Assembly (NCBI RefSeq): GCF_907165195.1
Contig: NZ_OU015584.1
Location: forward strand, 2,323,291 to 2,387,290
Reading direction: 5' to 3'
Source: Parvicella tangerina
Lineage (GTDB): Bacteria > Bacteroidota > Bacteroidia > Flavobacteriales_D > Parvicellaceae
DNA: 64,000 nucleotides
Shown: piece after piece, positions 46,915-50,282 of the stretch
Layout: every line of letters starts with the position of its first letter
Position numbering within the stretch: position 1 is the stretch's first letter
Position numbers and translations under genes: made by a program
The notes under the pieces: model-generated
The model's database searches: none
Told to the model about the DNA's origin: nothing
Seen by the model: only the letters and a program-made list of their open reading frames with translations

Positions 46915-46987
46915 GATTCGTTAGCTCAGTTGGTAGAGCACAACACTTTTAATGTTGGGGTCCTGGGTTCGAGCCCCAGACGAATCA
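46915..46987 (+). tRNA. tRNA-Lys (anticodon TTT)
   Basis: The cloverleaf is complete: acceptor GATTCGT with ACGAATC, D-arm GCTCAGTTGGTAGAGC, anticodon stem CAACA with TGTTG around the loop CTTTTAA (anticodon TTT), T-arm CTGGG with CCCAG, and discriminator A at 46987. CCA is not encoded. It is the only RNA gene in the window. A near copy of its 3' end (46976-46989) lies at 48982-48995. Confidence 0.97.
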
Positions 46988-46989
46988 CT
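46976..46989 (+). repeat. tRNA-Lys 3' end, possible attL core
   Basis: The 14 bases CCAGACGAATCACT at the end of the tRNA and the next two bases recur with one mismatch at 48982-48995. Tyrosine recombinases often use the 3' end of a tRNA as their crossover site, so this may be the left attachment site. Confidence 0.4.
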
Positions 46990-47000
46990 GAAGGAACTAA

Positions 47001-47030
47001 GCTCTATCCGTTACGGATAGGGCTTTTTTT
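47001..47030 (+). terminator. Intrinsic terminator after tRNA-Lys
   Basis: GCTCTATCCG (47001-47010) pairs with CGGATAGGGC (47014-47023) around a 3-base loop, with one G-T pair, followed by a T run. It begins 13 bases past the tRNA end. Confidence 0.85.
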
Positions 47031-47356
47031 ATTGTCAAACTTAGAGTTTCAAAGGAAACAGGACCATATTTTTCTAAGTCAAATCCCTCTCTATCCTGCA
47101 CTAATAATGTGATACAGAAACAGCAATTGTTTTGCCTGTGTTTTACCATTTTTAGATAGTAATATTTTGATGAAATAATTAGAAATTCTACAAGTATTTC
47201 TAAGAATATATTTAATTAGAACCATCAATATCAACGATTAAATGAGAAAAACTGTAACGTTAACATGTATTTTATAGTTATTATTGGTATGATTTTGGTG
47301 TGATATTGTACATTATTAGAGTAAACAACATTGACTTTAATGTTAAAAAAATGTCA
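47031..47356. other. AT-rich intergenic stretch
   Basis: Over 300 bases without a credible gene. It holds an imperfect copy of the direct repeat found at 49040-49078 (TAACGTTA at 47255-47262 and TTATTGGTATGAT at 47281-47293). Otherwise I see only low-complexity AT sequence. A short open frame running through the tRNA into this stretch is not convincing. Confidence 0.5.
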
Positions 47357-47402
47357 TTTTGTACAAAAATGAGCACTAAATTCAAAGTTTGAACTATATT
47401 TG
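47357..47402 (+). promoter_or_regulatory. Operator-like palindromes and -7 box of the 58-residue protein gene
   Basis: TTTTGTACAAAA (47357-47368) is a perfect 12-base palindrome and TTCAAAGTTTGAA (47381-47393) a palindrome with one central base. The perfect -7 box TATATTTG (47395-47402) follows at once, 22 bases before the start codon. No -33 element is present, and the palindromes occupy its place, which suggests control by a DNA-binding protein, perhaps the gene's own basic product. Confidence 0.5.
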
Positions 47403-47424
47403 TATACAATTAAAAACCAACACA

Positions 47425-47601
47425 ATGGGCGCTGATTTAACAAACAATGCTTTAGATGCTATAAAAGACAGAGTTGTTAATGAGAAAAAGTTACGACTTT
47501 CTAAAAAGAGAAAATCAAGAATTGAAGATTTTTCTCCAAGAGTAATGACGTCTGAGGAAATTAGAAAAGAAAAGATTGATAGGTATCAACTTGTCTTGTA
47601 A
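47425..47601 (+). CDS. Small basic protein, possible antitoxin-like partner
   Basis: 58 residues from the ATG at 47425 (MGADLTNNALDAIKDRVVNE); an in-frame Met codon at 47389 lies upstream of and within the promoter and is rejected. The centre is very basic (KKLRLSKKRKSRIEDF), followed by SPRVMTSEEIRKEKIDRY. It has no signal peptide and could bind DNA or RNA. The family is not recognised. It is separated from the next gene by a strong terminator. Size, basic charge and position resemble antitoxin genes, which is an inference only. Confidence 0.6.
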   Translation: MGADLTNNALDAIKDRVVNEKKLRLSKKRKSRIEDFSPRVMTSEEIRKEKIDRYQLVL

Positions 47602-47626
47602 ATTTATTTAATTAAAGAATTTTGAT

Positions 47627-47660
47627 TCCGTTATTCAATGTTTGAATAACGGATTTTTTT
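47627..47660 (+). terminator. Strong intrinsic terminator inside the two-gene unit
   Basis: TCCGTTATTCAA (47627-47638) pairs perfectly with TTGAATAACGGA (47642-47653) around a 3-base loop, then a run of T. The next gene begins only 10 bases after the T run, so any transcript reaching it from upstream must read through this stop. Confidence 0.9.
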
Positions 47661-47670
47661 TGTTTTAAGC

Positions 47671-48267
47671 TTGTTCGAGGAAAGATACTCATATCATCTT
47701 AATAACCCTGTTAAAGTCTCTGAAATAAGTATTAATGGAGAACTTAAATCAGAGATCTACCGTGTTAGGACAATTAAAGGAAAAAAAGTCTATTTCATTA
47801 AATTAGATATATTCCATCATGATGTATTCTTTATCAAATTTTACCTGAAGAAAGATCAAAATAATAAGAATAAATTCAAAATTAGATACGGAAATGTAAA
47901 GGAACTAACTCGATTAGTTTCAACATGTCTAGTATTGGCAAACAGAAAACTGAAACAAAATCCCGATTCAATCTTTGCTTTTCACGGACAGTGGGATGAA
48001 AAAGATGTACAAGAAGAAAATGTTATTAGCCAAAGATATAGAATATACAAAAGAGTCATTGCGTCAAAAGTAGATGAGAATAAATATAAGTTCTATTTAA
48101 TAGACAGACTAAACTCGATGGCAGTAATCCCAGTCCACCTTTATAATGAAAAAAATCTAGCTAAGATTAATAAATACTTCAATGATCTATACGGAGAAAC
48201 ACTTGAAGAACTTATTGTACCTACAATTGAAGAGTATAATCAAAACCTTATGGAAACAGAAACTTAA
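47671..48267 (+). CDS. Unrecognised 198-residue protein with TTG start
   Basis: No in-frame ATG or GTG lies between the stop at 47647 and codon 1; the first start is TTG at 47671 (FEERYSYHLNNPVKVSEISI). The protein is Lys-rich with no signal peptide or membrane segment. The middle reads like an alpha/beta domain (RYGNVKELTRLVSTCLVLAN, then DSIFAFHGQWDE), and a basic region follows (SQRYRIYKRVIASKVDE). The overall plan recalls Bacteroidota DUF6169-like proteins, but this is uncertain. With a terminator and a poor start codon before it, it would be made at low level, as for a toxic product. Confidence 0.6.
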   Translation: MFEERYSYHLNNPVKVSEISINGELKSEIYRVRTIKGKKVYFIKLDIFHHDVFFIKFYLKKDQNNKNKFKIRYGNVKELTRLVSTCLVLANRKLKQNPDSIFAFHGQWDEKDVQEENVISQRYRIYKRVIASKVDENKYKFYLIDRLNSMAVIPVHLYNEKNLAKINKYFNDLYGETLEELIVPTIEEYNQNLMETET

Positions 48268-48317
48268 CTCAATGGGAACCTACTATGTAATCCCTAGGAT
48301 AGAGACCTAGCTAAAAG

Positions 48318-48578
48318 TTAATTATGACCGTTATTCTTTATTGAATCAGCTAAATTTTTTGCAAGTTGATGTTGAGTTTCCCCATTAATACCCTCAATAT
48401 CTAACATCAAACAAGCTAATTGACAATATTCGTCAGGTAATTCGTCTTCATCAATTGGGATAGTAAACTTCCTGCTATTTATTTCATTTCTATACACATC
48501 ATGTTCCCAACCAGGCATTCTTTGATAGTGTACAACACTGTTATTAAGAAAATGAATTTGCAAATCTACTAAACGCAT
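48318..48578 (-). CDS. HicA-like small protein
   Basis: 86 residues. The segment GWEHDVYRNEINSRKFTIPI (about residues 23-42) resembles HicA, whose pattern is a Gly-x-His near a turn followed by YRN/FRH and a strand with VP or IP; the His is in the expected place. HicA is an mRNA interferase with a double-stranded-RNA-binding fold. The C-terminus (YCQLACLMLDIEGINGETQH) is longer than in HicA. It overlaps the upstream HicB-like gene by 10 bases. Likeness is weak and by eye, and a non-HicA family is possible. Confidence 0.45.
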   Translation of the reverse strand: MRLVDLQIHFLNNSVVHYQRMPGWEHDVYRNEINSRKFTIPIDEDELPDEYCQLACLMLDIEGINGETQHQLAKNLADSIKNNGHN

Positions 48579-48814
48579 GGTATCGACATTTTTTCTCTCT
48601 CTAATCCAAATTTCTCAAACTGAACACGCAAATCTTCTGCATTCTCCAACTTATTCGATTCTAGAATACAATTTGCGGCATCCATCAACCTTTCCATTAA
48701 GAGTTCTTTTGAACTAGCAAACGAAGTAGCACCAGCCACTTCTAAAATTGCCCCCATATAACTGCTTTCATTTATCTTAACGATCCAAGCTGTATATTCG
48801 TGTTTATGACTCAT
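48569..48814 (-). CDS. HicB-like small protein
   Basis: 81 residues. The start (EYTAWIVKINESSYMGAILE, VAGATSFASSKELLMERLMD) follows the HicB order: a strand, an ESS/DGG turn, a second strand ending in a Gly-containing segment, then an amphipathic helix. HicB has a partial RNase H-like fold that blocks HicA. No C-terminal DNA-binding helix-turn-helix is visible. It is first in the pair, as in some hicBA loci, and the 10-base overlap with the HicA-like gene indicates coupling. An alternative is a pair of unrelated small hypothetical genes. Confidence 0.42.
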   Translation of the reverse strand: MSHKHEYTAWIVKINESSYMGAILEVAGATSFASSKELLMERLMDAANCILESNKLENAEDLRVQFEKFGLEREKMSIPCV

Positions 48815-48981
48815 AATTTTAATTTAGTTAAGCATATTACGAAATATCCTATAATTTGTTACACAGATTAACAACCATCTTTATAGTTTAGAATGATTAC
48901 AAATAATGTTTTACCATTGTTTTACTTCCCAACAACAAAACAACTGTTTTTTTACAAAGAATTAATCTCACATACGAACTA

Positions 48982-48995
48982 CCAGACGAATAACT
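48982..48995 (+). repeat. Near copy of the tRNA-Lys 3' end, possible attR core
   Basis: CCAGACGAATAACT matches CCAGACGAATCACT (46976-46989) at 13 of 14 positions. The similarity stops at the T-arm side, as expected for a crossover core rather than a tRNA pseudogene. A terminator begins 3 bases later. Confidence 0.4.
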
Positions 48996-48997
48996 AA

Positions 48998-49038
48998 AAA
49001 GAGGATTGTTGAGAAGTGTTCAATCCTCTTTTTTTATT
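48998..49038. terminator. Hairpin terminator after the tRNA-end copy
   Basis: AAAGAGGATTG (48998-49008) pairs with CAATCCTCTTT (49021-49031) around a 12-base loop. A T run follows on the plus strand, and the A run before it gives T residues on the minus strand. It may be the displaced terminator of the tRNA or may end the minus-strand gene at 49145-49444. Confidence 0.8.
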
Positions 49039-49039
49039 C

Positions 49040-49078
49040 TAACGTTACCTATAAAATCTATGTTATTGGTATGATCTT
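49040..49078. repeat. Imperfect direct repeat (second copy)
   Basis: TAACGTTA at 49040-49047 and TTATTGGTATGAT at 49063-49075 appear in the same order at 47255-47262 and 47281-47293, separated by 15 and 18 bases respectively. The origin is unknown; it may mark duplicated regulatory DNA around the accessory genes. Confidence 0.4.
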
Positions 49079-49144
49079 AACAAACAAACTTTAGATGCAT
49101 AACAATGCACCTGGATTATTTGCAGAGAAAAACTTCAGCTCTTA

Positions 49145-49444
49145 TCATTCACACAATTCTGCTAGAATTTCTTCTAACTTATTTTTGATAATTGTGTTTT
49201 TTAGACTGGGGTACAAATACTCTTGTACTTCAAAATAATCGAGTAACATTCTGGTAACCTCCTCTATTGTAGTACCGTTTTTAGTCCACCCTTTTCTATC
49301 GGAGTTCACTACTCCTGAGGCATTCATAAATAATCGAATAACCTGGTAATCATCACTTTCTACATTATACAATCGATAACGATGTCCGGGAATCTCAGCA
49401 AGGGCTCCACTTTCTGAAACTAATATGTCTCTCAATTTACTCAA
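49145..49444 (-). CDS. Hypothetical small cytoplasmic protein
   Basis: 99 residues if started at TTG 49444; a stop codon lies two codons upstream, and the first internal Met is residue 40, which would remove nearly half. The N-terminus (SKLRDILVSESGALAEIPGH) is followed by YRLYNVESDDYQVIRLFMNA and a helical C-terminus (LEEILAELCE). No signal, membrane or known motif was recognised. It sits alone on the minus strand with a terminator about 115 bases downstream. The coding potential seems real but the start is uncertain. Confidence 0.5.
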   Translation of the reverse strand: MSKLRDILVSESGALAEIPGHRYRLYNVESDDYQVIRLFMNASGVVNSDRKGWTKNGTTIEEVTRMLLDYFEVQEYLYPSLKNTIIKNKLEEILAELCE

Positions 49445-49803
49445 ATTTCAACATTAGGACTATTTGTAAATTCACCAATAAATTTGCTTTAGAAAAGCTA
49501 TATCGAGCTTTTGATTTCTAATTTTTAATTACCTTTAGCAACATACCTAATGACCAGCGACAAGAATTGAAAAGAGAGTCGCTGACCACTAGGTAGTTTG
49601 TTTTAACATGTCAACAAAACTTTGAAGGGGTTTTCACATTACAGTGAGGGTTGGTTGTCCTTATGAATAATAAATCAGAACAATTAGAACCCTGACCTTT
49701 TAGTTTGTTAGACCTAACAAATATAGGTCTAATTTTTTAGAAAAATGATCTAAAAAACTAAAAAATAAGTCTTTTCGGGTTTTTGGCTACTAATGGATGA
49801 CAA
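49445..49803. other. Intergenic region with inverted repeats upstream of the XRE gene
   Basis: 359 bases without a gene. It contains a long imperfect inverted repeat (49546-49561 with 49578-49593; 13 of 16 pairs, 16-base loop) and nested operator-like repeats near 49708-49765. The rest, including a GC-poor segment near 49600-49700, shows nothing I can name. Confidence 0.5.
49708..49765 (+). promoter_or_regulatory. Nested operator-like repeats upstream of the XRE regulator
   Basis: TTAGACCTA (49708-49716) and TAGGTCTAA (49724-49732) form a perfect inverted repeat with a 7-base spacer. TTTTTTAG (49733-49740) pairs with CTAAAAAA (49750-49757), which is repeated directly at 49758-49765. The block ends 38 bases before the XRE start, so it is a likely binding site for the regulator. 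Confidence 0.5.
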
Positions 49804-50280
49804 TTGAGCTTAGGAAGTAGACTACATAAGGCGATGAGAGGCAAAGGGATTACACAAAAAGATTTGGGTAAACTGTTAGGGGTAAAATCAGGCACGATTT
49901 CTTACCGTATCAGAAACAATGCTTTTAAAAGTCACGACATTGATTTCATTTGTAATCATTTTGGAATAAATCCTGAATGGGTAAAACTCGGAGTTGGAGA
50001 AATATATCAGGACTCTGAAACTACTTATGCTTCCAAAGAAATTGAGAGTGACATTCAAGAACGTTCTGTTGAGTATTACAATATCCTAACTGGTAATGAA
50101 TTGAATGAAATCATCAACAACGAAAAGGATTATTCGAGGAAAGTTCTTATTGAACGAATCCGAGATTTGGAGATTAAGCTTCTGCAAGCTTTAGATGCTG
50201 AAAAAATAGCTGTAAAAAGAGAACGTCAGATTACTGATCGATATCTAGAACTTTTAGAACAAAAGAATAGTAAAGATTAG
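49804..50280 (+). CDS. XRE-family helix-turn-helix regulator
   Basis: 158 residues with a TTG start at 49804 (an in-frame stop lies one codon upstream); an ATG at codon 11 would remove the first helix of the domain. The helix-turn-helix (LHKAMRGKGITQKDLGKLLG, VKSGTISYRIRNNAFKSHDI) is followed by FGINPEWVKLGVGEIYQ, the phrase typical of Bacteroidota phage-like repressors. The C-terminal half is a long charged coiled coil (KVLIERIRDLEIKLLQALDA) that could mediate dimer formation. It likely binds the repeats at 49708-49765 to control itself. It is convergent with the DUF4919 gene. Confidence 0.88.
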   Translation: MSLGSRLHKAMRGKGITQKDLGKLLGVKSGTISYRIRNNAFKSHDIDFICNHFGINPEWVKLGVGEIYQDSETTYASKEIESDIQERSVEYYNILTGNELNEIINNEKDYSRKVLIERIRDLEIKLLQALDAEKIAVKRERQITDRYLELLEQKNSKD

Positions 50281-50282
50281 CT

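Follow-up and report, generated by a model that had tools for sequence, protein, structure and literature searches.

Genomic islands in the 3' ends of tRNA genes are common (PMC9897764), and islands of this kind are also known in the Flavobacteriia, where the 10K island of Riemerella anatipestifer lies at a tRNA-Arg gene and carries a perfect repeat of 53 bp (PMC6764341). The DNA behind the tRNA-Lys(TTT) gene of Parvicella tangerina, described here within a window of 64,000 nucleotides (the whole stretch that was analysed, to which the coordinates refer), resembles these tRNA-targeted islands in that lineage-specific, AT-rich DNA lies 3' of the tRNA and a copy of the tRNA tail follows downstream; it differs from the Riemerella island, with its perfect 53 bp, in that the repeat matches at 13/14 bases, and from such islands in general in that no integrase is seen and the terminator of the tRNA is in place. 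Two further kinds of arrangement are comparable. Insertion hotspots between convergent genes likewise hold a compact cassette between the ends of transcription units, with variable content at the same spot and without repeats, whereas here one of the flanks is a tRNA gene and the insertion is one that we infer. Terminator-controlled two-gene units share with the cassette described below the succession of a small ORF, a hairpin with a U-tract and a second start codon, although about half of the homologous cassettes are without the hairpin.

The tRNA-Lys gene occupies positions 46915–46988 of the forward strand (ARAGORN; Rfam RF00005), and the 14 bases of its 3' end (46976–46989, CCAGACGAATCACT) recur on the same strand at 48982–48995 (CCAGACGAATAACT), 13/14 identical, as a degenerate copy, and nothing else in the 64 kb matches with fewer than two mismatches; the repeat with a single mismatch pointed out in the first-pass annotation is, then, real. 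The resemblance of this copy to the tRNA is confined to the 3' 14 bases, the remainder of the tRNA not being recognisable upstream. Dinucleotide shuffling of the 3.3 kb that follow the tRNA (47000–50282; 1000 shuffles) put the probability of a match of at least 13/14 at 0.002 when the 14-mer is fixed as 46976–46989, at 0.4–0.5% when it may lie anywhere near the tRNA 3' end, and at 0.034 when every 14-mer of tRNA-Lys counts. One of the 17 relatives (L028) has an internal tRNA 14-mer matched 13/14 within 3.3 kb, apparently by chance, and a tRNA-like match with an alignment score equal to that of the tail copy, but to a different part of the tRNA, is found at 48522–48543, inside the p86 gene. The copy may therefore have arisen by chance, given the length and AT-richness of the interval, as a match to the end of the tRNA that lies beside one of many terminators, a reading that we hold to be tenable at less than even odds: it draws on the probability of up to 0.034 once any part of the tRNA counts, on the comparable match in the relative, on the equally scoring match within p86, and on the chain score of the tail copy and the sm58-like remnant behind it, which was attained in 4 of 150 shuffles, but it accords less well with the fact that the match coincides with the tRNA's functional end and has a terminator at most two bases further on, as for a tRNA, and with the probability of 0.002–0.005 when the tRNA end alone is allowed. 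The repeat is suggestive and not decisive, and the tail copy is too weak as proof of an inserted element.

Both members of the repeat have a terminator behind them, the left one at its normal position. The tRNA-Lys gene is followed by its own intrinsic terminator at 46999–47030 (forward strand; hairpin of -16 kcal/mol, z -3.9), and a second intrinsic terminator, the one already noticed behind the copy, is present directly 3' of it at 48996–49036 (forward strand; -14.9 kcal/mol, z -2.9). The claim that the original terminator of the tRNA had been displaced is not confirmed, as tRNA-Lys retains a strong terminator at a distance that is normal by comparison with its relatives: in 17/17 of those examined a hairpin with a T-run is placed close behind tRNA-Lys, as at 46999–47030. 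Since this strong terminator already follows the tRNA, the displacement argument carries little weight, and the native terminator of tRNA-Lys could be either 46999–47030 or 48996–49036.

These observations bear directly on the possibility that a small integrative element, or the remnant of one, was placed at the 3' end of tRNA-Lys by a tyrosine recombinase acting in trans, with about 2 kb between att sites at 46976–46989 and 48982–48995. The element would then have brought the proximal terminator, 48996–49036 would be the displaced native one, and 49042–49103, next in line, would belong to another element, decayed and sharing its left end with the first. The tail repeat with its following terminator (given the shuffle probability for the tRNA end alone), the sharp junction at which only the last 14 bases of the tRNA are copied, the collinear sm58 remnant behind the copy, the AT-rich, foreign-looking content and the customary location of islands, in Flavobacteriia too, would all fit such an event. 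Nevertheless, the significance of the repeat is modest, the tRNA-Lys terminator is normal, as in all the relatives examined, the repeat falls far from the perfect 53 bp of Riemerella (PMC6764341), members of the same cassette family occur elsewhere without repeats, and neither a recombinase nor an integrase was found among the interval ORFs or the surrounding genes scanned, in agreement with what the first-pass annotation had reported for the integrase. Integration of this type is, in our judgement, unlikely.

The tRNA-Lys neighbourhood in related genomes offers a different origin for the copy. Several other genera of the family have GlcD, tRNA-Lys, a terminator and tRNA-Leu(GAG) in this order, the two tRNAs being about 65 to 600 bp apart, whereas in the genus of the window this order is broken, and tRNA-Leu(GAG) is located beside other genes in the genome of the window (G000) and in G001 and G002. 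The tRNA-Leu(GAG) of the own genome lies about 580 kb from tRNA-Lys, beside tRNA-Arg(CCT) (L083, G000:C1:2945000-2960000). tRNA-Lys has a different context in G001, no tRNA-Lys follows GlcD on the stretch of G003 examined, and DUF4919-OmpA has other neighbours in G001 and G002; synteny with the remaining three genomes of the genus is lacking here, and no empty allele of the tRNA-Lys site was found. Two complete tRNA-Lys genes occur at one locus in four relatives (L035, L044, L148, L149), with Lys-Leu-Lys tRNA arrays in G010, G023 and G035, and with two identical tRNA-Lys genes in G039 that are 4.0 kb apart, enclose protein genes and have each their own downstream sequence; a further tRNA-Lys end behind the first thus has precedents in the order and does not have to mark an att site. 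The tail copy might accordingly be the last trace of a second tRNA-Lys gene that decayed, its 3' end with a terminator of its own, left after an ancestor with two such genes had lost the 5' part of the second one by deletion or by replacement with the genes that now lie between. The arrays and the gene pair of G039 provide a precedent for this origin, but the copy stops after 14 bases with no recognisable tRNA upstream, and in G001, a member of the same genus, tRNA-Lys is seen without a second such gene beside it, which leaves this origin doubtful.

The interval 46990–50282, bounded by tRNA-Lys on one side and by a convergent DUF4919 gene on the other, contains sm58, p198, p86, p81, p99 and an XRE gene. 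The AT-richness previously ascribed to the interval is borne out (GC 0.27–0.34, against 0.37–0.41 in the surroundings), and so is the description of its genes as small and unrecognised, with no convincing Pfam, NCBIfam, PHROG or PADLOC match in the 2 kb delimited by the repeat. The orphan ORF p86 (48318–48578, reverse strand), which overlaps p81, matches no family and no phage record, and its match to a viral contig (L147) is short, the contig being GC-rich. The orphan ORF upstream of it, p81 (48569–48814, reverse strand), is present in its own genome only, among 399 Flavobacteriales; a resemblance of p81 to HicB, noticed by eye, receives no support from Pfam. A third orphan, p99 (49145–49444, reverse strand), has no family match and no viral-contig relative, and p81 and p99 are without relatives in the collections searched. 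Beyond the interval first delimited lies the gene for an XRE/CI-like helix-turn-helix protein (49804–50280, forward strand; Pfam HTH_19, 3e-6; PHROG repressors, 1e-13), restricted to its own genome among 299 Flavobacteriales. A probable degenerate upstream region and 5' end of sm58, composed of pieces of 47257–47296 and 47433–47465 in collinear order, is found on the forward strand at 49042–49103, with a whole-search significance of only about 0.03; it sits just behind the second terminator. The tail copy and this remnant together hint at a tandem second set of tRNA end, terminator and sm58 start, which may have arisen via duplication or a second element. Four origins of the tail copy are thus conceivable: it could descend from an att site, from a second tRNA-Lys whose end alone survived decay, or from a tandem duplication, or it could be a product of chance.

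The one recognisable unit of the interval is a two-gene cassette, defined here as a small MG... ORF with a MTxEEIxxxRxxAY-like C-terminus, located on the same strand and directly upstream of a p198 homologue of about 200 aa. In the window, sm58 (47425–47601, forward strand, 58 aa) matches these small ORFs with the motif MTxEEIxxxRxxAY and is followed by p198 (47671–48267, forward strand, 198 aa; alignments A1, A3 and A4), so that the pair conforms to this definition; an intrinsic terminator lies between the two genes (47627–47661, forward strand; fold z -4.2), and p198 starts with a TTG codon 9 bases past its U-tract. The -7 box of Bacteroidota promoters has the consensus TAnnTTTG, and by this consensus we take TATATTTG (47395–47402, forward strand), read from the DNA upstream of sm58, to be a -7-like box; no -33 box was recognised upstream of sm58.

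Homologues of p198 are present in 20 of 399 Flavobacteriales genomes, the own included (about 5%), and a profile recovered them in 10 of 395 Bacteroidota, including Brumimicrobium, Fluviicola and Cryomorphaceae MAGs; within the own family they are found in 2/39 genomes, one of them with a broken, divergent copy. Nearly all of the Flavobacteriales homologues examined have directly upstream a small ORF of 50–65 codons, and these ORFs share the conserved end MTxEEIxxxRxxAY, sm58 being a member. About half of the cassettes, that of the window included, have an intrinsic terminator between the ORFs with the second start a few bases past the U-tract, an arrangement also seen in Brumimicrobium, Fluviicola and Flavobacteriales MAGs, and about half have no intercistronic hairpin. 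No further copies of sm58 were detected in the own genome. An origin from a phage or plasmid was considered and discarded: p198 has no relatives in the plasmids or viral contigs searched, and phage records yielded one weak partial match, with 33% identity, on an unannotated faecal phage scaffold.

The p198 protein of the window itself matches neither Pfam DUF6934 nor DUF6853, whereas other members of its family, taken singly, give weak matches to DUF6934 and DUF6853 (E 1e-4 and 8e-4, 1e-4 being the best). Comparison by sequence with solved structures gave nothing below E 0.45 for p198. A structural model built with a ten-sequence alignment (mb0bcd0256c2f), after an earlier fold without alignment had been poor, reached pLDDT 71 and pTM 0.71; its best Foldseek match in pdb had an E of 0.06, and the best Z values by VIA, 7.7 for antizyme and 7.5 for an acetyltransferase, are within the range of common arrangements. 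The similarity to GNAT, antizyme and RNase E domains, nowhere reaching a Z of 8 or a Foldseek E as low as 0.05, is too weak for a function of p198 to be assigned. Foldseek also linked the model to phage proteins, uncharacterised but alike in their predicted fold, the best match having an E of 6e-7 and a TM of 0.56 (by query length); among them are domains of proteins annotated as ParB-like and as zeta-toxin.

Filled and empty alleles of a cassette site are available in another genus, g16, at one site only. Two convergent genes there lie 6 bases apart in G356 and about 21 in G306 (L104, L105), and in G079 and G269 a cassette of about 0.9 kb lies between the convergent stop codons (L070, L081); the same site holds another gene in G092 and a divergent cassette with other genes in G324 (L106, L107). 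No direct repeats were found at the g16 cassette borders, and no integrase accompanies the 0.9 kb unit at this site. At the g16 locus the cassette has been gained or lost as a unit, without att sites, and this intergenic site is a gene-insertion hotspot whose content differs between species. In the sister species G003 (L056, G003:C3:30000-38000), a divergent cassette with an in-frame stop lies on the reverse strand 413–1125 bases behind tRNA-Gln; it starts 413 bp behind this tRNA and its terminator, and no tRNA repeat is associated with it. Synteny of tRNA-Gln and ddl, considered for the G003 cassette, is not conserved in the genus.

The proposal of an inserted element at tRNA-Lys is therefore retained in part. 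The content of the interval is lineage-specific (p81 and the XRE gene occur only here among the 399 and 299 Flavobacteriales searched, and p198 in 2/39 genomes of the family) and includes a cassette that is demonstrably an insert at the g16 site, and the lineage-specific DNA behind tRNA-Lys was probably inserted; the integration by an att-type recombinase finds no support, with the terminator in place and no integrase seen, and the duplication taken for att sites has no counterpart at the related cassettes of g16 and of G003. Insertion of the cassette behind terminators, those of tRNA genes included, would be the economical explanation for this site, given that the filled and empty g16 alleles and the cassette behind the G003 tRNA-Gln are both free of repeats. 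Accretion of the cassette behind the terminator is thus favoured over att-mediated integration, and, with a rough probability of 0.5, 46990–50282 is a zone in which lineage-specific genes accumulate and no defined integrative element, the sm58-terminator-p198 cassette being its main recognisable unit. Against accretion it can be said that the exact 3' end of the tRNA is copied 13/14 with a terminator at once behind it, which has an att-like look, and the p81-p86 module and the XRE gene are not accounted for by the cassette.

Under the accretion reading, the cassette would have arrived behind tRNA-Lys as at the g16 site, through recombination, either illegitimate or relying on homologous flanks, at a place behind a terminator that tolerates insertions, and no recombinase would have acted on the tRNA gene. 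The tail copy would be a by-product, either the end of a second tRNA-Lys or the end of a tandem duplication of local extent, in which the start of sm58 was copied as well, or else a chance match. The order of the elements in the cassette is consistent with expression of sm58 from its own promoter and with termination of most transcripts at the hairpin between sm58 and p198. The p198 protein might then be made by read-through only, and the weak TTG just past the U-tract may render it scarce or conditional; against this candidate read-through control stands the absence of the hairpin from about half of the homologous cassettes. A more speculative extension, to which we assign a low likelihood, is that sm58-terminator-p198 represents an undescribed mobile cassette of Bacteroidota without an integrase of its own, which would prefer terminator-backed spots, such as convergent gene ends and the 3' sides of tRNAs, and whose effector, p198, would be gated by a read-through terminator, in the manner anticipated for a unit of conditional immunity or of toxin type.

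In summary, the locus illustrates how a repeat behind a tRNA gene can look convincingly like an att duplication while the evidence that integration took place is not firm, and the position of the native terminator, the presence of tandem tRNA copies in relatives and the rates obtained in shuffled sequences are useful controls for claims of att sites. The lasting interest of the locus lies in the sm58-p198 pair, a little-known two-gene cassette that recurs patchily in the Flavobacteriales and for which natural empty sites exist.
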